The notes beneath the pieces were generated by a model. It ran no database searches. It was given only the letters and a program-made list of their open reading frames with translations, and had not been told where the DNA came from. From contig NZ_JROO01000030.1 in the NCBI RefSeq assembly GCF_000826685.1, forward strand, positions 1 through 64,000: a stretch of DNA of 64,000 nucleotides, read 5' to 3'. The translations under genes were made by a program, and so were the position numbers. The stretch's first letter is position 1; every line of letters begins with the position of its first letter. Positions 10,336-56,515 of this stretch are shown here, piece after piece. Source of the DNA: Streptomonospora alba (GTDB lineage Bacteria > Actinomycetota > Actinomycetes > Streptosporangiales > Streptosporangiaceae).

Positions 10336-11067
10336 TCAGGCCCGCCGCGTGGGCGAGCGTGCCAGGCTGAGCCGGTAGAGCAGGCGGCAGTGGTCGACCG
10401 AACCGACCAGGTCGGAGGTCTCGACGGGGCGCTGCCCCTGGTAGTGGGTCCGCTCCACGACGAGCACGGGCAGTCCCGGCGCCAGCTTCAGCAGGCTGGA
10501 CTCGGGTTCGCGCAGCGGTCGTACGCCCACCTCTTCGACCACCCTGTCGACGGCCACCCCCGCGGCCCCCAGCCGCTGGAGCACGCCGGTGCCCGGCTCG
10601 GTGTCGGCGGGGGTGCGCAGCGTGCCCTGGGTGAGCGAAGCCGGCTCCCAGGCGGTGTGCAGCGCGACGGGTACGCCGTCGGCAGTGCCCAGGCAGCGCG
10701 TGCGAAAGACCCGCACACCGTCGCGCACGCCCAGCCGCCGGGCGACGAGGCCGCAGGCGGTCTCCGTGCAGGTGCCCAGGTCCTCGTGCCGCAGCGGGTC
10801 GACTCCGGAGCCCGAGGCGCGGTCGGTGCGGGAGAACCGGTGGATCTGCGGTACCGACCGCACGTAGTAGCCCGACCCGGGACGGGCCTCCACGAGCCCT
10901 TCGCTGACCAGCAGCCGCAGCGCGTGGCGGGAAACCTGCTCGCTGACCCCGTGGGAGCGGGCCAGCCGGGAGCGCGAGGGCAGGCGCGAACCGGGTTCGA
11001 GCTCGCCGTTGAGGATGGGTCTGCGCAACACGTCTGCCACCCACAGGTAGCGCGGTCGCCCTTCCAT
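10336..11067 (-). CDS. GntR/HutC-family transcriptional regulator
   Basis: Repressor of 243 residues. The N-terminal winged helix includes LPSRSRLARSHGVS, and a C-terminal UTRA-type effector domain is suggested by VERTHYQGQRPVE near the end. It starts at ATG 11067, two bases after the S9 peptidase stop, so both are probably cotranscribed. The effector is not recognisable. In an alternative reading the gene would start further upstream inside the peptidase gene, which is unlikely. Confidence 0.85.
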   Translation of the reverse strand: MEGRPRYLWVADVLRRPILNGELEPGSRLPSRSRLARSHGVSEQVSRHALRLLVSEGLVEARPGSGYYVRSVPQIHRFSRTDRASGSGVDPLRHEDLGTCTETACGLVARRLGVRDGVRVFRTRCLGTADGVPVALHTAWEPASLTQGTLRTPADTEPGTGVLQRLGAAGVAVDRVVEEVGVRPLREPESSLLKLAPGLPVLVVERTHYQGQRPVETSDLVGSVDHCRLLYRLSLARSPTRRA

Positions 11068-11069
11068 GG

Positions 11070-12911
11070 CTAGGACGCTCCCGGTGCCGCGCCCTCCCGC
11101 CGACCGGTGATTCTCAGCGCGAAGTCGAGCTCGGCCGCCATCTGGCGGATGCCCTCCTCCACGACGAAGGAGCCGTGCCCGGCGTCGAAGCGGTAGACCT
11201 CGTGGGGTTTGCCGAGCTCGGCGAGCCGGGCGAGGTAGTTGTCGATCTGGCGGATGGGGCAGCGCGGGTCGTTCTCTCCGGCCAGCACCAGCACGGGTGC
11301 CCGGACGTCGGCGACGTAGGTGATGGGCGAGGAGGTCCGGTACCGCTCGGGCACGTCCTCGGGCGATCCTCCGAACATCGACCTGTCGAAGGCGCGCAGC
11401 GCCTCCATCTCGTCGGCGTAGGCGGCCTCGAAGTCGGCGACCGGAACCGCCGCGATGCCGGCGCTCCAGTCGTCGGGCCTGCGGCCGAGCGCGAGCAGGG
11501 CCAGGTAGCCGCCCCACGAGCCGCCTTCGACGATCAGCCGGTCGGGGTCGGCCAGGCCGGTCTCGACGGCCCAGTCGCGCACCGCGGTGATGTCCTCCAA
11601 CTCGGTGACGCCCACACGGCCCTCCAGGGCGTCGCGCCAGGCGGTGCCGTAGCCGGTGGATCCCCGGTAGTTGACGCGCACCACCGCGAAGCCGTGGTCG
11701 ACCCATGCGGCCACGTCGGGCCTGAAAGCGTCGTAGTCCTGCGCCTGCGGGCCGCCGTGGACGACGAAGACCGCGGGATGGGGGCGTCGGCCGTCCTCCG
11801 GCAGGGAGACCAGCGCGTGGACCGATCCGCCGGGGCCGTCGACGTGCACGTCGTGGACCGGCACCGACGGAGGCGCCGCCGGTCCCTCGGGTTCGAGCAC
11901 CACGGTGCCGGCGGTGGAGCGCACGGCGGGCGGATGCTGGGAGTCCGACCAGGAGTACTCGACTGTGCCATCGGGCCGCGCTGTAGCGGCCGAGACCACC
12001 CCGGGCGGGACGTCGAGGGAGGTGAGGGTGCCGTCGGCCGGTGCGTAGCGGTGCAGCATGACGCGGCCCTGGCTCTCCTGAGTGATCAGGAGCGCTGCGG
12101 CGTCGGGCGTCCACTCGGCCGAGAGTTCACCGGACAGTCCGGTGTCGAGGTCGTGTTCGGCACCGGTGACCGGGTCCCAGATCAGGGGCGCGCGGCGGCC
12201 GCCGCGCTCGTGCAGCACCAGCAGCCGACGGCCGCCGGGCTCGAAGGCCACAGGGGTCAGGTCCCGGCCGGGACCGTCCCACAGGTCGCCCACGGTATCG
12301 GCGGGACCCGCGGTGCCGTCGCCGGAGTCGGGGCCCGGGGCCTGCGGTCCGTCCGAGGAGCCCTCGTGCAGGCGAAGTACGCGCACCGCCATGTGCCGAC
12401 TGTCGCCGTGCTCGCTGTGGGCCAGCGCCAGCAGCGAGCCGTCGTCGGACAGGTCGGCCACCCAGCCCTCGCAGCGGTGCGCGTACACGGTGCGCGCGGC
12501 CCGGCCGGCCGCACCCGCGTGCGCGCTGAAGCCCGCGTCGGTGGAGCGGCCCACCACGGCGAACCCCTCCGATCCGAGCGCCAGTCCGCCGATGTAGGAG
12601 GGGCCCAGGCCGGGCAGCGGGGTATCGTCGGCGCCCCCGGCGAACGGCTGCCGCCGCCATACGCCGAACTCGTCGCCGTCGGTGTCGTCGAACCACCAGA
12701 CCCAGGCGCCCTCGGGATCGAGCGCCCCGGTCTCGGTGCCGTTAGGGCGCTTGGTCAGCTGCCGCCGCTCGCCCGTAGCGCGGTCCCAGGCGTGCAGCTC
12801 CCACGTGCCGCTGATGTTGCTGCGGAAAAGCGAGCGGTCCGGCGCCTTCCTCGCCCACGAGGGAAGACTGACCCTGCCCGCGCGGAACCGCTCCTGCCAA
12901 CGCTCACCCAT
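11070..12911 (-). CDS. S9 family (prolyl oligopeptidase-like) serine peptidase
   Basis: Probably a cytoplasmic peptidase, since no signal peptide is seen. Its 613 residues comprise an N-terminal beta-propeller region (about 1-350) and a C-terminal alpha/beta hydrolase. The nucleophile is the Ser of GGSWGGY, the Asp is in GENDPRCP and the His in DAGHGSF, giving a complete triad. ATG 12911 has a GGAG only a few bases away. The next gene in the operon encodes a GntR regulator, so its peptide substrates or an ester may be linked to that effector; this is inference. Confidence 0.9.
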   Translation of the reverse strand: MGERWQERFRAGRVSLPSWARKAPDRSLFRSNISGTWELHAWDRATGERRQLTKRPNGTETGALDPEGAWVWWFDDTDGDEFGVWRRQPFAGGADDTPLPGLGPSYIGGLALGSEGFAVVGRSTDAGFSAHAGAAGRAARTVYAHRCEGWVADLSDDGSLLALAHSEHGDSRHMAVRVLRLHEGSSDGPQAPGPDSGDGTAGPADTVGDLWDGPGRDLTPVAFEPGGRRLLVLHERGGRRAPLIWDPVTGAEHDLDTGLSGELSAEWTPDAAALLITQESQGRVMLHRYAPADGTLTSLDVPPGVVSAATARPDGTVEYSWSDSQHPPAVRSTAGTVVLEPEGPAAPPSVPVHDVHVDGPGGSVHALVSLPEDGRRPHPAVFVVHGGPQAQDYDAFRPDVAAWVDHGFAVVRVNYRGSTGYGTAWRDALEGRVGVTELEDITAVRDWAVETGLADPDRLIVEGGSWGGYLALLALGRRPDDWSAGIAAVPVADFEAAYADEMEALRAFDRSMFGGSPEDVPERYRTSSPITYVADVRAPVLVLAGENDPRCPIRQIDNYLARLAELGKPHEVYRFDAGHGSFVVEEGIRQMAAELDFALRITGRREGAAPGAS

Positions 12912-13909: not shown

Positions 13910-15226
13910 CTAGACGACGATCCGCATCGGGTTCTCCAGCACCTCGGCGAGGTCTTTCAGGAAGGCCGCGCCGACCGCGCCGTCGACCGCGCGGTGGTCC
14001 ACCGACAGCTCCAGGGCCATGGTGTTGCGGGCCACGACCTCGCCCTCGTGCACCACCGGCTGCTGCTTCATCGCCCCCACGGCCAGGATCGCCGCTTCCG
14101 GCGGGTTGATGACCGCCGAGAAGCTGTCCATCCCGTACATGCCGAGGTTGCTGACGCTGAAGGTGCCGCCGCTCATCTCCTGCGGCTTCAGCTTGCCCTC
14201 GCGGGCGCGCTCGGCGAGCTCGCGGCTGCGCTGGGCGATCTCCGAGAGCGGCATCCTGTCGGCCTCGTGCAGCACCGGCACGATCAACCCGGCCTCCACC
14301 GCCACCGCGACGCCCACGTTGACGCGGCCGTGCTGCAGCAGCTTCTCGTCCACCCACGAGCGGTTGACCTCGGGGTGGGCGCGCAGTGCCGTGGCGCAGG
14401 CCTTGACGATCAGGTCGTTGAAACTGACCTTGGTTCCGGCGCTCTCCAACCGGGCGTTGATCTGGGACCGGAAGCCCTTGAGCGGCTCGGCGTCGATCGT
14501 GCGCCGCAGGTAGAAGTGCGGGGCCTCCTGCTTGCTCTGGGTGAGGCGGCGCGCGATCACCTTGCGCACGTTGCTCACCTGCAGCTCGGAGGAGTCCCGG
14601 CCGTCGTCGTAGCCTTCCTGGCCTGCGGACGCCGCCGGTGCCGCGGCCTGCGGCGCAGTGGCGGTCGCCGGGGTCTCGGGCTGGGGTTGGCCCTGCTTGG
14701 CCGCCGCCTCGATGTCGGCGCGCACGATCCGGCCCTTGGGCCCCGATCCGCTGATGGACTCGATGTCCACCCCGTACTCGCGGGCCAGTCGGCGCGCCAG
14801 CGGGGAACTGCGCGGGCGCGTGCCTTCCTCGCCGTCGGGGCCGGAGGCGGCGGGCTGCTGCGGAGCCTGCTCGGCGGGCTGCTGCTCCTGCTCCTGGGCC
14901 GCCGGCTCCTGCTCGCCCCCGCCCTCGGCGGGCTCCTGCTCGGCGGGTGCCGCCGCGCCGCCGGAGGAGGACTCCTCGGGCACCGCGTCAGGACTGTCGC
15001 CGAGGTGGCCGATCACCTCGCCGATGGGGACCGTGTCGCCCTCCGAGACCGCCTGCTTGACCAGGTAGCCGTCCTCATAGGCCTCGTACTCCATGACGGC
15101 CTTGTCGGTCTCGATCTCGACCAGGACGTCGCCCGAGGTGACCTTGTCGCCGACGTTCTTGACCCAGGAGCTGATGACGCCTTCCTCCATGGTGTCGGAG
15201 AGGCGCGGCATGTAGATCTCTGTCAT
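13910..15226 (-). CDS. Dihydrolipoamide acyltransferase, E2 of a 2-oxoacid dehydrogenase
   Basis: Core of the complex that transfers the acyl group from E1 to CoA. Its 438 residues have one lipoyl domain with the modified lysine in IETDKAV (Lys42), an Ala/Pro/Glu/Gln linker, an E1/E3-binding domain (about 138-175, with SPLARRLAREYG and GSGPKGRI), a second linker and the catalytic domain ending in SVDHRAVDG, with the HxxxDG residues. The start at ATG 15226 follows AAGGGGAA and lies 14 bp after E1-beta. No lipoamide dehydrogenase (E3) is in the cluster, so it is presumably shared. Confidence 0.93.
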   Translation of the reverse strand: MTEIYMPRLSDTMEEGVISSWVKNVGDKVTSGDVLVEIETDKAVMEYEAYEDGYLVKQAVSEGDTVPIGEVIGHLGDSPDAVPEESSSGGAAAPAEQEPAEGGGEQEPAAQEQEQQPAEQAPQQPAASGPDGEEGTRPRSSPLARRLAREYGVDIESISGSGPKGRIVRADIEAAAKQGQPQPETPATATAPQAAAPAASAGQEGYDDGRDSSELQVSNVRKVIARRLTQSKQEAPHFYLRRTIDAEPLKGFRSQINARLESAGTKVSFNDLIVKACATALRAHPEVNRSWVDEKLLQHGRVNVGVAVAVEAGLIVPVLHEADRMPLSEIAQRSRELAERAREGKLKPQEMSGGTFSVSNLGMYGMDSFSAVINPPEAAILAVGAMKQQPVVHEGEVVARNTMALELSVDHRAVDGAVGAAFLKDLAEVLENPMRIVV

Positions 15227-15240
15227 CGTGTGGTTCCCCT

Positions 15241-16239
15241 TCACCCGACTCGCTTGCCCACAGCGCTCAGGGTCTCCTTGACGGCGGTGGTGATCGACTC
15301 GGCCGACGGCAGCGCCGCGTTCTCCAGCGGCTTGGCGTAGGGGAGGGGAACCTCGGCCATGGCCACGCGGCGCACCGGAGCGTCGAGGTAGTCGAAGGCG
15401 CCCTCCTGGATGGATGCGGCGATCTCGGCGCCGATCCCGTAAGTCAGCCAGTCGTCCTCGGCGATCACCGCGCACCCGGTCTTGCGGACCGAGTCGACGA
15501 CGGTCTGCCGGTCGAGGGGCCGCAGGCTGCGCAGGTCCACGACCTCGACGCTGACGTCCTGCTCGGCAAGCTCCTCGGCGACCCGCAGGCTCATGGCGGC
15601 CATGCGCGAGTAGCCGATGAGGGTGATGTCGCTGCCTTCGCGGGTCACGGCGGCCCGGCCGATCTCGGCGACCGTCTCGTCGCCGTCGGGAACCTCGCCC
15701 TTGGAGTTGTACAGGCCCAGGTTCTCCAGCAGCATCACCGGGTCGTCGTCGCGGATGGCGGCGCGCAGCATCGCGGCGGCGTCGGCGGGGGAGCTGGGGG
15801 CGATGACCTTCAGCCCGGGGACGAAGGCGTAGAAGAGCTCGATGTTCTGGGAGTGCGTGGCGCCGAGCTGCTGCCCGCCGCCGCCCGGCGTGCGGATCAC
15901 CATCGGCACACTGGTCTGGCCGCCGAACATGCCGTAGACCTTGGCGGCGTGGTTGATGATCTGGTCGACGGCGATCAGCGAGAAGTTGATCGTCATCAGC
16001 TCGACGACGGGCCGCAGCCCCAGCATCGCCGTGCCTACGGCGGCCCCGACGAAGCCCTCCTCCGAGATCGGGGTGTCGCGCACCCGCTGCTCGCCGAACT
16101 CGTTCAGCAGCCCTTCGGTGATCTTGTAGGAGCCCTCGAAGAGCCCGATCTCCTCGCCGAGAAGCAGCACGTTGTCGTCGCGGAGCATCTCCGCCCGCAG
16201 CGTGTCGCGCAGGGCCTGGCGGTAAGTGATCACAGACAT
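15241..16239 (-). CDS. 2-oxoacid (pyruvate-type) dehydrogenase E1 beta subunit
   Basis: Beta subunit of the thiamine-diphosphate E1, 332 aa. The N-terminus has LLLGEEIG, followed by RVRDTPISEEGFVG and the EL(M)TINF region typical of pyruvate dehydrogenase E1-beta proteins; acetoin or branched-chain substrates remain possible. ATG 16239 follows AAGGAG. It lies 18 bp after E1-alpha and 14 bp before E2, so the three make one operon. Confidence 0.92.
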   Translation of the reverse strand: MSVITYRQALRDTLRAEMLRDDNVLLLGEEIGLFEGSYKITEGLLNEFGEQRVRDTPISEEGFVGAAVGTAMLGLRPVVELMTINFSLIAVDQIINHAAKVYGMFGGQTSVPMVIRTPGGGGQQLGATHSQNIELFYAFVPGLKVIAPSSPADAAAMLRAAIRDDDPVMLLENLGLYNSKGEVPDGDETVAEIGRAAVTREGSDITLIGYSRMAAMSLRVAEELAEQDVSVEVVDLRSLRPLDRQTVVDSVRKTGCAVIAEDDWLTYGIGAEIAASIQEGAFDYLDAPVRRVAMAEVPLPYAKPLENAALPSAESITTAVKETLSAVGKRVG

Positions 16240-16257: not shown

Positions 16258-17385
16258 CTATTCGGCGAACACCGGGTCGGCGGGCATGCGGCGCGACTCG
16301 TTCGCCACGGGGGTGGCGTAGGTGTAGTCGAACAACGTGGAGACGTCGGGAGAAGGACTGTTCTCCGCGAAGTCGGCGGCGTCGGCGACCTCCTCCTTGA
16401 CCGCGTCGGCGATCTCCTTCTTCTTCTCCTCGGTCAGCACGCCGGCCTTCTCCAGCTGTTCCTCGAACGCGGCCACGGGGTCGTTGGCCCGGGCCTCGGC
16501 CACCTGATCCTCGGTGCGGTACTTGGCGGGGTCGACCACCGAGTGGCCCTTGAGGCGGTAGCTCGTGCACTCCAGGATGTAGGGCCGCTTCTCGGAGCGG
16601 GCCTTCTCGACGAGGTCGACGGCCGCGTCGCGCACCGCGAGGACGTCGCGGCCGTCGACGCGCACGCCCTCGATACGGAAGGCGGAGCCGCGCTTGTACA
16701 GGTCGGGTTCGGCGGAGGAGCGCTCGACCGAGGTGCCCATGCCGGTGAAGTTGTTCACGATGGCGTAGACGATGGGCAGGTTCCACAGCGACGCGAGGTT
16801 GAGGGACTCGTGCCAGGCGCCGATGTTGGTGGTGCCGTCACCCATCTGGCACATGACGACCTCGTCGCCGCCGCGGTAGGTCACGGCCAGCGCGGCGCCG
16901 GTGGCCAGGGGCAGCTGGCCGCCGACGATGCCGTAGCCCCCGAGCATGCGCGTCTCGGTGTCGTACATGTGCATGGAACCGCCCCAGCCCTTGGCCACGC
17001 CGTCGCTGCGGCCGTAGAGCTCGGCCATGACCCGCCGCGGGCTCATGCCCTTGTGGATGGCGTAGCCGTGGTCGCGGTAGTTGGTGTAGAGGTAGTCGCG
17101 CTCCTTGAGGGAGTCCATGAGACCCACGACCGTGGCCTCCTCGCCCAGGTTCAGGTGGCAGTAGCCGCCGATGCGGGCCTGGGTGTAGGCCTGTCCCGTA
17201 CGCTCCTCGAACCGGCGGACGAGGACCATCCGCCGGTAGTAGTCGAGCAGGACGTCGGGTTTCTCGTCGGCGACACCGGAGGTGGTGCCGCCGGTGGCCG
17301 AGGTGGTGCTGTCTTTCCGGCTCCGCCGGCGGCCCCCCGTGCTCTTGGCGGTGCCGCCGCCCTTCGCCTTGGCCGTGTCAGCCAT
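16258..17385 (-). CDS. 2-oxoacid (pyruvate-type) dehydrogenase E1 alpha subunit
   Basis: Alpha subunit of E1, which decarboxylates the 2-oxoacid on thiamine diphosphate. The 375-aa protein has a low-complexity Lys/Gly/Thr leader of about 45 residues, then the GGSMHM region and the GDGTTNIGAWHE...NN cofactor motif. The phosphorylation-loop-like RLKGHSVVDPAKYR is also present. ATG 17385 follows AAAGG. Its leader region of about 280 bp and the promoter with palindromic operator upstream suggest control by the neighbouring FCD regulator. Confidence 0.92.
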   Translation of the reverse strand: MADTAKAKGGGTAKSTGGRRRSRKDSTTSATGGTTSGVADEKPDVLLDYYRRMVLVRRFEERTGQAYTQARIGGYCHLNLGEEATVVGLMDSLKERDYLYTNYRDHGYAIHKGMSPRRVMAELYGRSDGVAKGWGGSMHMYDTETRMLGGYGIVGGQLPLATGAALAVTYRGGDEVVMCQMGDGTTNIGAWHESLNLASLWNLPIVYAIVNNFTGMGTSVERSSAEPDLYKRGSAFRIEGVRVDGRDVLAVRDAAVDLVEKARSEKRPYILECTSYRLKGHSVVDPAKYRTEDQVAEARANDPVAAFEEQLEKAGVLTEEKKKEIADAVKEEVADAADFAENSPSPDVSTLFDYTYATPVANESRRMPADPVFAE

Positions 17386-17661
17386 GCTGGTGCCTTTCTA
17401 CGTGCGGAGGCGGCCGACCCGGGCCGGTAGGCCCAGGAGGCCACTACCCGGGTTCGCGGTCGGAACCGGGCCCGGGAGAGGGTGCGCCGACGCCGGGCTC
17501 GATCGGCGGGGCGCGCAAGTGGCTGTTAGCTGTTCGTGGCTGGACTCGCGGTCCGCCCGCCTCCCGAGTCACCCTTCCCCGGTTCCGGGCTCGGGTCACC
17601 CGTTTCGGTCGGCTCGCGTAGCTCCGTCGACCCACATACCGTGTGACGTGTGTCGTGGCAC

Positions 17662-17693
17662 ACTCTACGTATTGATCGATGATCGATCAATAC
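17662..17693 (-). promoter_or_regulatory. Promoter and palindromic operator of the E1/E2 operon
   Basis: On the minus strand TTGATC (17690-17685) and TAGAGT (17667-17662) are spaced by exactly 17 bp. A near-perfect palindrome with 12-bp arms (GTATTGATCGAT, one central base, 17669-17693) covers the -35 box and spacer. A bound protein would block polymerase. The FCD-type GntR protein encoded 58 bp away is the natural candidate. Confidence 0.72.
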
Positions 17694-17750
17694 GACTTTA
17701 AGGGACGTACGCGGCGGATCGGGCAGGCGAGGCGGTGTCCGCTCCCGTGG

Positions 17751-18428
17751 TCACTCGGCGCGGCCGAAGGTCTTGACGGCGGCGTCGACGTAGTTCAGGA
17801 CATGTTCGCGCACCATCCGACCCACGTCCGGGTCGCCTCTGCGGAACGCGTCGGTGATCTGGGCGTGGTCGACGGCCTTGGCGTGCAGCTCCATGTTCAG
17901 CCACCGCACCGACAGCCGTGTCCACACGTCCACCCCCAGCGACTCCCAGGTGTGGGACAACACACTGTTGTCCGCCGCACGGACGATCTCGCGGTGGAAC
18001 TCCACGCTGTGCTTGATCTGCTCCTCGACGTCGCCGTCGGCGGTGGCCCGCCGCAGCGCCTCGACCTCGCGCTCCAGCGGACTCGGATCGACCGACAGCC
18101 GCGGCGCCGCCAACTCGGCCGCGACCAGCTCCAGACCGGCGCGTACCGGATATATCTCGGCCATGTCGGCGACACCGAAGTCGCGCACTCGCGCGCCCTT
18201 GTTGGGCACCGACTCGATCAGGCGCAGGTTCTCCAGTTCCCGCAGCGCCTCGCGTACGGGCGCCTGGCTGACGTTGAACTCGGTCGCCACGCGGCGCTCG
18301 ACGATGCGCTCGCCCGGTTGCCAGCGGCCCGAGAGCAGACCCTCCACCAGCATGCGCCGGATCTGCTCCCGCAGCGGGTTCCGGGCCAGGCGGGCGGGGT
18401 CCTCCGGCCACTGGGGGAGGTCGACCAT
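17751..18428 (-). CDS. FadR/FCD-subfamily GntR transcriptional regulator
   Basis: Regulator of 225 residues with an N-terminal GntR winged helix (about 20-85, including VERRVATEFNVSQAPVREALRELE) and an all-helical FCD domain in the C-terminal half with the metal- or ligand-binding pattern ending HAQITDAFRRGD...REHV. Such proteins (PdhR, LldR, FadR) commonly bind organic acids. ATG 18428 follows AAAGG; a TTG directly upstream is also in frame. It is transcribed towards the E1/E2 operon and is likely its pyruvate- or acid-responsive repressor (inference). Confidence 0.87.
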   Translation of the reverse strand: MVDLPQWPEDPARLARNPLREQIRRMLVEGLLSGRWQPGERIVERRVATEFNVSQAPVREALRELENLRLIESVPNKGARVRDFGVADMAEIYPVRAGLELVAAELAAPRLSVDPSPLEREVEALRRATADGDVEEQIKHSVEFHREIVRAADNSVLSHTWESLGVDVWTRLSVRWLNMELHAKAVDHAQITDAFRRGDPDVGRMVREHVLNYVDAAVKTFGRAE

Positions 18429-39676: not shown

Positions 39677-39713
39677 GATGTGGGGAGGGCGCGGACCGCG
39701 CCCTCCCCACATC
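39677..39713. terminator. Strong bidirectional terminator
   Basis: A perfect 18-bp inverted repeat beginning GATGTGGGGAGGGCGCGG around a single central base separates the rightward 56-aa gene from the leftward cellulase gene. Confidence 0.8.
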
Positions 39714-51726: not shown

Positions 51727-52626
51727 CTACCGGCGGTCGGCTCCGGTCCCCCGGGGCAGCCCCAGCCGCCCGCGGGTGAGGAGGACGAGGATCACCGCGA
51801 CCAGCGCGACCAGCACCGCCTCGCCCATTCCGCTCGCCTCGCCCAACGCCGCGACCTTGAGTCCCGCGACCGCGTTGACGGCGGTGTGGGCGACCACCAC
51901 GGCGATCAGGCCGCCGCGGGAGGAGTTGAAGACGCAGCCGAAGACGACCGTGAGGCCGACGACGAGCATGGTGTAGACGTGGAAGTCGATCTGGGACTGG
52001 ACGGTTCCCGGCATCGTCCACAGAGGAGCGTGCCACACCGCCCAGACCGCGCCGAGGATCACGTTCGCGGCCAGCGGGGGCATGGCCCCCTGCAGCCGGG
52101 GCAGCATGAATCCGCGCCAGCCCAGTTCTTCGTTGCCGCCTCCGGCGAAGGCGATGAGCAGGACGTTGGCGGGCAGTAGCGCCGCCGCGGCCCCCAGTTC
52201 TGCGCTGTTCACCGACGCCTCCGCCAGCAGCACCGGAATCGCCGCGGAAGCCGCGATGGCCAGAACGACGGCCGCGGTGATCACGTAGGGCGCTGCTCCG
52301 CCCCGTCGGCGCGGCGAGTACCGCCGGAAGAGGGCGCCGACGCCGGACCATCCCTGGAGGGCCCAGGTGACGGCCACCGCCGCGACGGCCGGCCCGAAAC
52401 TGCCGATGATCACGAGCGCCATCGGATTGCCGCCCTCGGTGAGGGCGGTACCGCCTCCCCAGACCGACCAGGAGAAGGCGAACGCGACTAGGAGGTAGGC
52501 GGCGAGGCCGCGCGGCGGGAGCGTCGTCGCACGCGCCGGGTCGGCGGCGGCAGAGGCGGATTCGGGTGCGGATGCGCTCGCGGAGTCTGGAGAGGGGGGC
52601 CGCGTAGCGGACGAAGGGTTGCTCAT
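51727..52626 (-). CDS. CPBP-family intramembrane metalloprotease
   Basis: Membrane protease of the CAAX/bacteriocin-processing family, 299 aa with about eight helices. The catalytic motifs are present: NEELGWRGFMLPRL (EExxxR), VWHAPLW and VVAHTAVN. It may process a peptide or protect from bacteriocins. The N-terminal 45 residues are a Ser/Ala-rich tail. ATG 52626 is preferred over ATG 52641; both have weak ribosome sites. Divergent from a TetR regulator. Confidence 0.87.
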   Translation of the reverse strand: MSNPSSATRPPSPDSASASAPESASAAADPARATTLPPRGLAAYLLVAFAFSWSVWGGGTALTEGGNPMALVIIGSFGPAVAAVAVTWALQGWSGVGALFRRYSPRRRGGAAPYVITAAVVLAIAASAAIPVLLAEASVNSAELGAAAALLPANVLLIAFAGGGNEELGWRGFMLPRLQGAMPPLAANVILGAVWAVWHAPLWTMPGTVQSQIDFHVYTMLVVGLTVVFGCVFNSSRGGLIAVVVAHTAVNAVAGLKVAALGEASGMGEAVLVALVAVILVLLTRGRLGLPRGTGADRR

Positions 52627-52641
52627 ACTCGAAACATACAC

Positions 52642-52660
52642 TGTTGGATAGAAACCAACA
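52642..52660. promoter_or_regulatory. Probable TetR operator
   Basis: TGTTGGATAGAAACCAACA, a perfect 6-bp inverted repeat with 7-bp spacer, sits midway in the 62-bp divergent region between the CPBP and tetR starts. Confidence 0.6.
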
Positions 52661-52688
52661 ACGTAGGTCCCCTTGTATGCTGTCGGGC

Positions 52689-53363
52689 ATGGCTGAAGAG
52701 GGATCCGACCGGCAGTTCGGCAGCGTGTTCCACCGGCCGGAGCGCCGGCGCAGGGCCCAGCCCGCGCTGAGCCGCGAGCGCATCGTCGCCGCGACGATCG
52801 CGCTGCTCGACCGTGAAGGCTCGACCGCGCTGACGATGCGCAAGGTCGCCGCCGAGATCGGCGTCCACGCGACGAGCCTCTACTGGTACGTGGAGCGCCG
52901 CGAGGACCTCGTCGACCTGGCCGTCGACGCGATCCTGGCCGAGGCCGCCGCGGACCTGCCCGGCCCTGAGGCCCCCTGGGACACCGCGGTGAGGGAGACC
53001 GCGCGGCGGTACTATGCGGCGTTGACCGCGCACACGTGGGCGGCGGAGTTCGCCGGCGCGCGGCCGCTGGTCGGGCCGAACGCGGTCGTCCTCGCGAGAC
53101 GGATCATCACCGCGCTAGGGGAGCTCGGCGGCGACGAGGAGAGTCAGGCCGTCGCGGTCCGGGCGGTGTCCAACCAGATCCTCGGCGCGGCCACATCGGC
53201 TGTCGCGATGCGGACGAGCGAGGCGGAGTTCCGAGGCGGGCAGGCCGAAGAGGCCGTGGTCGCGTCCACGGCGGCGCCCAACGCCCTCACCCTGCCCGAC
53301 TCCTACTTCGACCAGGTGCTGGATCTGCTCGTGGAAGGCATCCGGGCCCACCGCGCCGCGTGA
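52689..53363 (+). CDS. TetR-family transcriptional regulator
   Basis: Repressor of 224 aa with an N-terminal helix-turn-helix (LTMRKVAAEIGVHATSLYWYVERREDLVD) and a C-terminal ligand domain of the TetR_C tetracycline-repressor type (WAAEFAGARPLVGPNA). ATG 52689 is the likeliest start, and ATG 52677 is in frame. Divergent gene arrangement and operator suggest it controls itself and the CPBP protease. Confidence 0.88.
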   Translation: MAEEGSDRQFGSVFHRPERRRRAQPALSRERIVAATIALLDREGSTALTMRKVAAEIGVHATSLYWYVERREDLVDLAVDAILAEAAADLPGPEAPWDTAVRETARRYYAALTAHTWAAEFAGARPLVGPNAVVLARRIITALGELGGDEESQAVAVRAVSNQILGAATSAVAMRTSEAEFRGGQAEEAVVASTAAPNALTLPDSYFDQVLDLLVEGIRAHRAA

Positions 53364-53615
53364 GGGCCGCGGTGTTGCGCGGAAGTCCAGAGGTCCGTTC
53401 CGGTGTCGCGCACCCGGTGTCCGCCGGAATGCCCACCCCGGCTCCTTGCCGGCGAATCCCTGCGCAGCAGAGGGCGGTGTTCTCCTTCGGCATCGCTGCT
53501 GACTGAGCCCGTCGGAACCCCGCCGCTCGTCGGCGGCGTAGCCGCCCACCTCGGTACCGGAGGCATGTGCGACGCGGCCTCTCAGGAGCCTCCCGCACGT
53601 CCCCGCACAACGAAG

Positions 53616-53647
53616 AAGGCCCGGCCTGTCTGTGCAGGTCGGGCCTT
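53616..53647 (-). terminator. Terminator of the original tRNA-Arg gene
   Basis: A 13-bp stem AAGGCCCGGCCTG/CAGGTCGGGCCTT (one wobble pair, 6-nt loop) is placed 22 bp beyond the tRNA 3' end in the leftward direction. It marks the chromosomal side of the integration point. Confidence 0.7.
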
Positions 53648-53668
53648 TTCTCAGCTGTCTCAGCTCTG

Positions 53669-53711
53669 CGCGCTCGGGAGGATTCGAACCCCCAACCTTC
53701 TGATCCGTAGT
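53669..53711 (-). other. Attachment site: 3' half of tRNA-Arg(ACG)
   Basis: On the minus strand the sequence runs from anticodon loop CTACGGA through GGTTGGGGGTTCGAATC to the 3' acceptor strand CGAGCGC with discriminator G. This is the anticodon-to-3'-end half of tRNA-Arg(ACG). No 5' half follows: similarity stops abruptly at about 53711. Such a fragment is what site-specific integration into a tRNA gene leaves at one end of an element. The intact tRNA should stand at the other end, outside the window. Confidence 0.85.
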
Positions 53712-54263
53712 AGGCGTGGGGGTGTCCAGCTCCGTCCGGGGTGGCTTGTCGACCCGCTGCCGGGCGCGGTTCCGGCCTCCGCAATTCCCTCGGCGTCCCG
53801 GCCCGTCCACAGTCGTTGTTAGCACCCGCGTTAGCAAGAATCGGGGCACCTACCTGCACCGGGCCTCAGCCACGCGCAAGGGATGGCTGAAAGCCAACGC
53901 GACGTGGGGCCAGCAACCACGGTAGCGCTCAGCCACGGTCCCGGGCCGAGGTGCTTGGTCGCGCTGGGGCCGGTAACCCAAGACAGACAGGGTCGCGCGA
54001 CCGAGTGGCTCGGGAGACTAGGACGTCGGGTGCCCGAATTACTCCAATAGGCAGCGGATCGCCGGTTCGGCGCGTCACCATAGGAACGAGCACACGACAT
54101 GCGCTCAACGGCGGCTGGGGCGTGCTCGGGACCGGGCGCCAGCCCGCAGCCCGAGCACGCCCCAGCAAGCCGCAGTGACGGCGCTCCGCGCCGTCGCCTT
54201 GATCTCACATAGCCAAATTCGGCAACGCTAGAGACGATCGTCCAGTCGAATCGAGTTCTTACA
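53712..54263. other. Noncoding left end of the element
   Basis: About 550 bp with no supported gene. It contains GTTAGCA direct repeats near 53820-53836, the perfect palindrome GGTCGCGCGACC near 53992, and a hairpin with 17-bp arms at 54114-54166. Some of these may serve recombination or insulate the cargo from chromosomal transcription. Confidence 0.5.
54114..54166. repeat. Long hairpin with perfect 17-bp arms
   Basis: GCTGGGGCGTGCTCGGG (54114-54130) and its exact complement (54150-54166) enclose a 19-nt GC-rich loop. It may be a strong terminator or a structural site of the element; no T-tract follows on either strand. Confidence 0.65.
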
Positions 54264-55202
54264 ATGGCTCAAAAGAACACTTACAGAGAGCGTACAGTGT
54301 CGTTTTATGAGATTGTGTTTCGCAAAAATGGAGAGGAGGTTCGTGGTGAGCAAGTGAATTGGAAGGAGTTTCTTTCCGAAGCTACGCGAGCAAAAGTTGC
54401 CGAGCTCACTTTGGATGCAGACGAAACTTTTGTGGGAAGTATCGTTCCAGTCGACGAAGAGGACCACTTGCTTTTGCATCGAGTAAAGGGCCAAACTGAA
54501 TGGCTTTCGGTTATGAATTGGGAAACAGGAGAATGGAAGGAGTTGGAATCAAAAGCCAGCGAGGGATATCTCGACACTTCTGTAATTTCTTTTCTATCCT
54601 ATGGGAACATCGTTGGGATAATGCAAGGGGCAACATCCTCGCCTACACACAAGTCGCTCGAAAAATGGATAAATGGAATCAAAGTATTCGAAAGGACAAA
54701 TGTCGTTGTTCGGCCGCTAGTATCTCAGGCTCAAGTTGATAGTCTTCGGCAAGCAAGCGGCGCAAATCGAATAGAGATTCGTATTGGTGCAAGCAAAAGC
54801 GAAGCTTTGAGTAAAAAGAACGGCCGCCTCGCGAATATGCTAAAGAAGGCCAGGGAAGACTATGGGGATATATCGGTAACTCTAATAATCAGCGTTCCTC
54901 GCGGCAAGTCGAGAACCGAAGATCGACAGCGGCTGCTTAACGACCTCCAAGACCTCGAAGAAGTTATGCCGAAGGCGGCAGAGAAGGCAAAAGCTACCTT
55001 GGTATACGCTGAGGAGGGGAGTCCTGAACAAAGACGTCTTGTTGAACTAGTGGAGCACCACATCACAGCGAAGCGTCGTGTTCCTGCTGTGGATGAGGAC
55101 GGCAACTCCGTGCGGATTTTGTCAGCGGTGGGCGCCATACTGGAGGTAGCAGATCAGCATGAAGCAGAGCTTAGGCGCGCAGCTGACGTTGAGGCTGGGT
55201 GA
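54264..55202 (+). CDS. RexA-like soluble protein, candidate abortive-infection sensor
   Basis: Soluble 312-aa protein with no signal peptide or membrane helix. By eye it resembles lambda RexA along much of its length: an opening SFYE strand, a short helix WKEFL, a strand with LLLHRV, then a block (about 107-175) with SFLSYGNIVGIMQG, a PTHKSLEKWI helix and VVVRPLV followed by a strand RIEIRIG. RexA is the DNA- and phage-sensing half of the RexAB exclusion system. Codon use is strikingly AT-rich for this genome. ATG 54264 lacks a clear ribosome site. A downstream start is possible but would remove the conserved strand. The next gene encodes a four-helix membrane protein 31 bp later. Confidence 0.7.
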   Translation: MAQKNTYRERTVSFYEIVFRKNGEEVRGEQVNWKEFLSEATRAKVAELTLDADETFVGSIVPVDEEDHLLLHRVKGQTEWLSVMNWETGEWKELESKASEGYLDTSVISFLSYGNIVGIMQGATSSPTHKSLEKWINGIKVFERTNVVVRPLVSQAQVDSLRQASGANRIEIRIGASKSEALSKKNGRLANMLKKAREDYGDISVTLIISVPRGKSRTEDRQRLLNDLQDLEEVMPKAAEKAKATLVYAEEGSPEQRRLVELVEHHITAKRRVPAVDEDGNSVRILSAVGAILEVADQHEAELRRAADVEAG

Positions 55203-55233
55203 CCTGGGGCTGCGTGACTGAGGCGGTGAGCGC

Positions 55234-55788
55234 ATGGCCAGGTGGTTCGATGCTGTGAGGACGCTTAGAGGGCTCTGGTCAGAAAAAACTTGGTTTGACT
55301 ACCTGCTCGCTGGATTCCTGGTAATTATTTACGGCCTAATTTCGCAACATTGTTCCAGCGTGGATTTCCTTTCTTTCAAGGATTTGAATCAAAGGCTAGC
55401 TATATACAGTACCACCGCGTCGGTAATCTCAATATTTGGCGGCTTGGGGGCAATTTCTATTACTGTTTATATTTCCGCTAGCGGCGAACGTTGGGAGATG
55501 ATCAAAAGAAACTATCACGTAGAGCTACACCGAAACTGGGTGGCTCTTACCGCTGGCTTGGGTCTTGCTGCCTTATTTTGCGTCACCGCACAATTGGTTG
55601 ACTACAACAAAGAGGCTGGACTTTCTCAATATGTATTTTGGTTTGGTGCAAGTTTGGCTGTCCTGAGATTTGCTCGATTGATTTGGATTTTTGATCATAC
55701 GCTTGAAATTTGGAGCAAAGACACCTCGGAGAGTGGCCGTATTTCCGCGCCAAGGTTTCACCCTAAATGGACAGAAAATTCTGAGTGA
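55234..55788 (+). CDS. RexB-like four-helix membrane protein, candidate effector
   Basis: Membrane protein of 184 aa with helices at about 21-40, 58-82, 101-122 and 132-153 and short charged loops (SGERWEMIKRNYHVELHRN between helices 2 and 3). This order, loop pattern and a second-to-third helix arrangement resemble lambda RexB, the membrane protein that depolarises the cell when activated by RexA. It is AT-rich like its partner and cotranscribed with it (31-bp gap). Start at ATG 55234, weak GAGGCGG site. Channel activity is inferred. Confidence 0.68.
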   Translation: MARWFDAVRTLRGLWSEKTWFDYLLAGFLVIIYGLISQHCSSVDFLSFKDLNQRLAIYSTTASVISIFGGLGAISITVYISASGERWEMIKRNYHVELHRNWVALTAGLGLAALFCVTAQLVDYNKEAGLSQYVFWFGASLAVLRFARLIWIFDHTLEIWSKDTSESGRISAPRFHPKWTENSE

Positions 55789-55855
55789 AGTGACATTGTG
55801 TTTTCAGTGTTGGGTAAATAATCATTCCTGCCTTGTAGGTGTACACTAGGTGCCC

Positions 55856-56515
55856 ATGATCCGTGCTGTGGCGTTCGATGTCGGTGAGTGCCTGGTGGAC
55901 GAGTCGACCGAGTATGGGACGTGGGCTGACTGGCTTGGGGTGCCGCGTCATACGTTCTCGGCGATGTTCGGGGCGATAATCGCTCGGGGGCTCGACTACC
56001 GGGAGACGTTCCAGGTCTTCCAACCCGGTTTCGACTTGGCCGAGCAGCGGCAGAAGCGGGCTGAGGCCGGTCAACCCGAAACCTTCGGCGAAGCTGACCT
56101 CTACTCCGACGTGCGGCCGTCGCTGGCGAAGCTGCGGGAGCAAGGGCTGTGGGTCGGCATCGCGGGCAATCAGACCGTGCGGGCTGGGGGCATCCTGCGT
56201 TCGCTCGACCTGCCCAACGACATGATCGCCACGTCCGACGACTGGGGCGTGTCCAAGCCCGACGTGGGGTTCTTCCGGCGCCTGGTGCAGGAAGCGCCGT
56301 GTGCGGCCGACGAGATTCTGTATGTGGGCGACCGTTTGGACAACGACGTCATGCCGGCGGCTGCGGTCGGGCTTCATACCGCGCTCATCCAGCGAGGGCC
56401 GTGGGGCACCATTCAGCAGGGCGACCCGGACGCCGATCGCATCCCCACGATGCGGATCGATGCCCTCTCCGAGCTGCCGGGCCGCGTCTCCGAATTCAAC
56501 GCCGGAGTGCGCTGA
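55856..56515 (+). CDS. HAD-superfamily hydrolase
   Basis: Phosphatase or dehalogenase-type enzyme, 219 aa. Motif I is FDVGECLVDES, where the first Asp is present but the second acidic position of DxD is Gly-Glu, so activity may be altered. Motif II is AGNQ, motif III lysine lies in SKPDVGFF, and motif IV is VGDRLDNDV. The second copy of the classical DxD residue is missing, a point against a plain phosphatase. ATG 55856 (or GTG 55850) has no good ribosome site; TACACT 9 bp upstream could be a -10, giving leaderless mRNA. The end overlaps the convergent XRE gene by 20 bp. Confidence 0.8.
   Translation: MIRAVAFDVGECLVDESTEYGTWADWLGVPRHTFSAMFGAIIARGLDYRETFQVFQPGFDLAEQRQKRAEAGQPETFGEADLYSDVRPSLAKLREQGLWVGIAGNQTVRAGGILRSLDLPNDMIATSDDWGVSKPDVGFFRRLVQEAPCAADEILYVGDRLDNDVMPAAAVGLHTALIQRGPWGTIQQGDPDADRIPTMRIDALSELPGRVSEFNAGVR

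Follow-up and report, generated by a model that had tools for sequence, protein, structure and literature searches.

The question raised by this locus is how a pyruvate dehydrogenase operon is controlled when a perfect inverted repeat lies over its promoter and a GntR-type gene adjoins the repeat. In the window, that is, the whole stretch of 64 kb analysed here, the order on the minus strand is the FCD GntR gene, 56 bp, the repeat, about 280 bp, and then the genes for E1alpha, E1beta and E2. The features are the following:

13910–15226, minus strand: dihydrolipoyl acetyltransferase E2 (Pfam 2-oxoacid_dh, Biotin_lipoyl, E3_binding; ATG start by reading)
15241–16239, minus strand: pyruvate dehydrogenase E1 beta (PRK09212, 424 bits against a cut-off of 321)
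16258–17385, minus strand: pyruvate dehydrogenase E1 alpha (TIGR03182, 438 bits against a cut-off of 393.85)
17386–17655, minus strand: predicted untranslated leader, about 270 nt (transcription start placed from the −10 element)
17662–17667, minus strand: −10 element TAGAGT (from the sequence; TANNNT kept in 60/60 head-to-tail loci)
17668–17694, no strand: predicted operator, an inverted repeat with perfect arms, CGTATTGATCGAT-G-ATCGATCAATACG (from the sequence; kept in 36/36 close relatives)
17673–17682, no strand: second overlapping unit TGATCGATGA, 9/10 match, 7-bp offset (read from the sequence)
17680–17689, no strand: core operator unit TGATCGATCA, exact (with ATGATCGATC, the sole 10-mer common to essentially all loci)
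17685–17690, minus strand: −35 element TTGATC, inside the operator (from the sequence; invariant in 60/60 head-to-tail loci)
17751–18428, minus strand: FCD-domain GntR regulator, 225 aa (Pfam FCD and GntR; ATG start picked by reading, ribosome-binding-like AGAAAGG upstream)

A previous sequence-only reading had assigned the operon to a 2-oxoacid dehydrogenase. The enzyme can now be named as pyruvate dehydrogenase, with E1alpha passing TIGR03182 and E1beta passing PRK09212; the best model for E2 is TIGR01349, at a score slightly below its cut-off (430.5 vs 445). The FCD-type GntR gene that the same reading had placed beside the palindrome is indeed there, and its Pfam matches to FCD (74.4 bits, cut-off 24.3, 1.4e-20) and GntR (55.5 bits, cut-off 27, 4.3e-15) are both above the gathering scores. 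The closest record to the regulator protein is from Streptomonospora sp. PA3, with 94% identity. AceE was found at E≤1e-200 in 0/7 genomes tested in the window's group, and the window's own genome has a single E1alpha, the next best matches being 29–30% identical, so the regulator in the window would control the sole pyruvate dehydrogenase that was detected. Downstream of the operon, frame 10336–12114 (minus strand) encodes another GntR regulator, this one of the UTRA type.

The inverted repeat is real and does overlap the promoter, but its arms are 13 bp long around one base and not 12 bp as had been claimed. Allowing up to 3 mismatches, the 27-bp repeat occurs once in the 64-kb window and 0 times in 100 shuffles, and its 23-bp core occurs once in the 5.9-Mb genome. 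The repeat structure taken alone is of no more than moderate rarity: two of 60 random sequences (first-order Markov, 64 kb) contained a comparable perfect repeat, defined by arms of at least 13 and a loop of at most 8, and longer perfect repeats also occur within the window. What excludes chance for the palindrome is its conservation in close relatives, all 36 of which have the repeat in the same place with at most 2 mismatches from TTGATCGATNATCGATCAA. The predicted recognition unit is an even palindrome of 10 bp, and the window site, TATTGATCGATGATCGATCAATA, consists of two overlapping units. Other hairpins in the window include a perfect G+C-rich one at 39677–39713 whose 18-bp arms flank a single base, terminator-like and without a T run, and one with 16-bp arms beside tRNA-Ser(GGA) (2550–2587 and 2605–2691).

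A search of the order at E≤1e-40 recovered orthologs of the FCD protein from 186 of 345 genomes, and a sample of 394 genomes taken from the class yielded them in 72 at E≤1e-45. From the close-relative set 36 of the 38 returned loci were used, L053 and L054 being dropped at 29–30% identity. A further 36 loci from the order set and 20 from the class set were picked by regulator similarity with the site ignored, and three more (L055–L057) came from a search with the site. Counting the window, the ortholog set comprises 93 loci, many of them close relatives of one another, 60 in head-to-tail and 33 in divergent arrangement; three homologs with 44% identity served as a negative set. In the protein set of 96, L055, L056, L099, L109 and L112 were retained in the count although their frames are either short or run through a stop where the gene ends.

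We found ATGATCGATC beside the FCD ortholog at all 93 loci, and the full TGATCGATCA at 92 of them. A pyruvate dehydrogenase E1, either E1alpha or the single-chain AceE, is a neighbour at 89/93 loci (58/60 head-to-tail and 31/33 divergent). Beside the three 44%-identical homologs both the site and the pyruvate dehydrogenase neighbours are absent (0/3 each). This comparison supports the circuit of operator, FCD gene and pyruvate dehydrogenase operon that had been suggested. The divergent loci with such a neighbour comprise 20 with E1alpha and 11 with AceE; regulator and site are common to both types of E1. The raw head-to-tail count was 59, including an AceE neighbour at L174; this weak match is spurious and the actual neighbour is a WYL regulator.

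At the four loci where the regulator has another neighbour (flavodoxin-like at L090, AsnC/Lrp at L102, WYL at L174 and L177) the site is still present, which indicates that the site follows the regulator. At L102 the site and the 5' end of the regulator's reading frame overlap. In the head-to-tail loci, positions 1–9 and 11–17 of TTGATCGATCATCGATC are invariant and position 10 is C in 59 of the 60, where it should be noted that the TTGATCGATCATCGATC positions are fixed by the search pattern itself, which found all 60 loci. A second unit 7 bp away, with at least 7/10 letters, is present in the window, at 20/20 divergent E1alpha loci and at 1/11 divergent aceE loci.

At nine divergent aceE loci (L093, L095, L099, L101, L103–L105, L112 and L114) a single unit lies a few bases from an TTAAACACCC-type sequence and the aceE start. 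Their layout suggests a leaderless aceE transcript with the promoter under the operator. In the window, and in head-to-tail loci like it, the regulator's own gene has no copy of the site before it, the best 10-bp match in the 572 bases there in the window having 3 mismatches, so self-control via this site is not expected in such loci. Where the two genes diverge, the site between them may act on the regulator as well.

We now consider the promoter. The predicted elements, TTGATC and TAGAGT separated by 17 bp on the minus strand, are present as described earlier and overlap or abut the repeat. The term textbook promoter is too strong by the rules of E. coli, with 8/12 consensus positions, and a generic promoter scan that needed 9/12 of these positions reported none. 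What does hold is the pattern among relatives: TANNNT follows TTGATC after 16–18 bp at all 60 head-to-tail loci (TAGAGT at 17 in 37 and TACAGT at 18 in 12), a count that takes the best of four spacings (16–19) over loci that are not independent.

On this basis, we propose that the FCD GntR protein would bind the palindrome and repress the pyruvate dehydrogenase operon. Its recognition unit would be the 10-bp palindrome TGATCGATCA, and two overlapping units with a 7-bp offset, presumably both occupied, would between them take up the −35 element and the spacer. Since the units fill this region, the bound protein should exclude RNA polymerase. Release would follow when a small carboxylic acid, most likely pyruvate or a close relative, enters the FCD pocket. 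We regard a local repressor with the operator as described as quite probable; comparison of the loci shows the site, promoter and linkage to be conserved, and binding, repression and effector are what we infer.

The arrangement invites comparison with PdhR of E. coli, the repressor of pdhR-aceEF-lpd, where likewise, according to passages of PMC7660256, an FCD GntR protein is encoded beside pyruvate dehydrogenase genes, a palindrome lies at the promoter and an acid presumably causes release. PdhR is encoded inside its own operon and has many targets, as stated in the same passages, whereas in the present case the regulator gene is located upstream of the promoter and its product has one apparent target. 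The PdhR box given there is (A)ATTGGTnnnACCAAT(T), and the earlier statement that the present site differs from this consensus is borne out by the unit TGATCGATCA at 92/93 loci.

The protein is also different. The PdhR model (NCBIfam PRK09464) gives only 44.9 bits against a cut-off of 330, and the phnR_burk model scores higher, 98.3 bits, but fails its own cut-off of 271.5. The effector domain after the winged helix has about 143 residues; the part of PMC2018728 available to us puts the VanR group near 150 residues and the FadR group near 170. An AlphaFold model, made with a shallow alignment of 16 and having a mean pLDDT of 79.8, shows seven helical segments in this domain, two of them short and adjacent. 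In a Foldseek search with this model, PmiR, TM0439, AlkR, McbR, Atu1419 and others occupy ranks 1–26 with TMq 0.56–0.78, while DhdR, CGL2915 and FadR give 0.30–0.52; for several of these structures the VanR or FadR label is one that we assume. The family score, the fold search and the operator all point to the VanR group. With VanR-group folds matching best and the PdhR score failing, the protein is a PdhR analogue and not PdhR, and the previous term PdhR-like can be kept as an analogy only.

The effector domain alone matches PDB chains named 'Pyruvate dehydrogenase complex repressor' (9vkn and 9jpj). Closeness to PdhR in the PDB was dropped as support, the title of entry 9jpj being DhdR; this disagreement between chain name and title could mislead annotation.

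A further parallel is Atu1419 of Agrobacterium fabrum, a VanR-group FCD repressor (fold match E 1.7e-7, TMq about 0.6). As described in the text available from PMC7797058, it binds a 10-bp even palindrome, ATGTATACAT, placed on the −10 element or between −35 and −10, and the unit here is likewise even and 10 bp long. The palindrome sequence is another one, however, and the Atu1419 targets in that text are hydroxycinnamic acid genes, controlled from distant sites with looping, whereas the units here overlap. Three histidines (H145, H188, H209), kept at 93/93 ortholog loci, have the spacing of the Atu1419 zinc site Asn137/His141/His192/His214 reported there. Instead of the Asn that is the fourth metal ligand in Atu1419 (PMC7797058, same passages), position 141 is Ser in 59, Thr in 22, Gly in 8 and another residue in 4 of the orthologs, and Asp in the three 44%-identical homologs. 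Since known metal sites have Asp or Asn at this point, the effector pocket may be unusual.

FCD proteins sense many acids, and it is possible, at somewhat under even chances, that repression takes place as proposed with an effector other than pyruvate, e.g. acetyl-CoA, lactate, an acyl-CoA or a citrate-type acid. The effector domain shows no particular closeness to PdhR, and the 'PdhR' chain of 9jpj is DhdR, which is consistent with this. On the other hand, the targets, be they of one enzyme type or the other, come down to pyruvate dehydrogenase, and for this reason we favour a signal close to pyruvate. Pyruvate itself is a guess from the gene context, to which we give a nearly even chance.

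Turning to the direction of control, a comparison is offered by SCO2182 of Streptomyces coelicolor, a putative GntR gene between sco2181 (E2) and sco2183 (aceE1) according to excerpts of PMC12727718 and PMC9739823. The same gene order is found in the sampled Streptomyces-like genomes, and from it SCO2182 appears to be the Streptomyces ortholog. There are 39 such genomes in the class set, taken as Streptomyces-like partly from the E2-FCD-aceE order that matches sco2181-sco2182-sco2183; in the 18 examined (17 and G057) the site is present in 18/18 and aceE adjoins in 16/18. The excerpts of the two papers give neither an operator nor binding for SCO2182, and the portions of the literature found name no operator for Streptomyces pyruvate dehydrogenase; literature matches to TGATCGATCA, among those listed, are mostly Aeromonas and other primer papers.

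In its available text PMC9739823 proposes, from protein abundances, that SCO2182 is an activator of aceE1. One can therefore envisage an FCD protein that, once on the site, activates the operon, or one whose effect is positive or negative according to its ligand. We consider this unlikely, since the site covers the −35 element and spacer at 60/60 head-to-tail loci, a place typical of repressors, and the Streptomyces proposal, as far as that text goes, is a correlation.

A further option is that some other regulator, acting genome-wide, recognizes the palindrome and that the FCD gene is a bystander. Adjacency alone is no proof of binding, and further exact 12-bp units are found in many genomes: WTGATCGATCAW occurs at 2 places in the window's own genome and has matches in 30 of 60 genomes. 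However, among 20 secondary places, taken from the window's family and G057 (with the more distant G043, G047, G049, G051, G053 and G058 left out), there is no recurring target, and 8 fall inside a reading frame when frames are assigned crudely. Several of the in-frame ones read ATG ATC GAT CAA, an ordinary gene start.

In 28 genomes without the FCD ortholog and 27 with it, we also surveyed 59 aceE loci for TGATCGATCA within 600 bases. Where aceE has an adjacent FCD gene, the exact site is present at 8/9 loci and the ninth (L254) has CGATCGATCA, with one mismatch, while 49 of the 50 loci without an FCD gene in the examined stretch also lack the site. Together with the four FCD loci that keep the site without pyruvate dehydrogenase, this makes another regulator very improbable. 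The proposed FCD repressor appears, from these comparisons, to have essentially one target. At L159, around 2030 (G026), an intergenic TTGATCGATCAT unit lies near another GntR-like gene; it is possibly the site of a related regulator.

The single exception in the survey, L231, belongs to genome G665, where the FCD gene (L174) is followed by the WYL regulator and the regulated-type aceE is on another contig. This aceE shows 76% identity, compared to 63% for the other aceE of the same genome, and upstream of it is ATGATCGATGATCGATCAT, a perfect two-unit site without a linked FCD gene. E1alpha was found at E≤1e-90 in 2/28 FCD-negative genomes, and neither of these has the site or an FCD gene. Of the FCD-positive genomes, the 20 outside the window's group have at least one AceE each and 13 of them have two, which means that in those genomes the enzyme under the regulator is, for the most part, an additional one.

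Taken together, we lean towards the interpretation that a VanR-group FCD clade became, independently of the PdhR lineage, a dedicated pyruvate dehydrogenase repressor in Streptosporangiales and Streptomyces-like actinobacteria. The operator TGATCGATCA would have been kept through exchange of the target between E1alpha/beta and AceE, turnaround of the gene order and relocation of the target; in the window's group the repressor would control the only pyruvate dehydrogenase found, and elsewhere an extra one beside an unregulated AceE. The kind of system is known; the clade, the operator and the target exchange look new in the literature searched.

Regulator gene and site travel with the enzyme that leads sugar carbon into respiration in many soil actinobacteria, a clear case in which they persist while the controlled enzyme is swapped for another type. 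How much acetyl-CoA these bacteria have available for growth and for many of their antibiotics is also set by pyruvate dehydrogenase. With a defined site, regulator and promoter the proposal is directly testable, and it predicts repression where the passages of PMC9739823 suggest activation.

Finally, the predicted leader of about 270 nt is long for an ordinary operon, and its length differs among relatives. An Rfam search of the leader at E≤1 gave no family. A role of the perfect inverted repeat at the RNA level, by termination or attenuation, is hardly credible, since the repeat overlaps the conserved −35 element upstream of the inferred start, and no T run or terminator-like site was found at it. 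Elsewhere in the window, positions 52001–56000 have a G+C content of 0.613 compared to about 0.71, with a weak DUF6731 match in the gene at 54264–55202 and further frames that have no assignment, and this part is perhaps acquired DNA.
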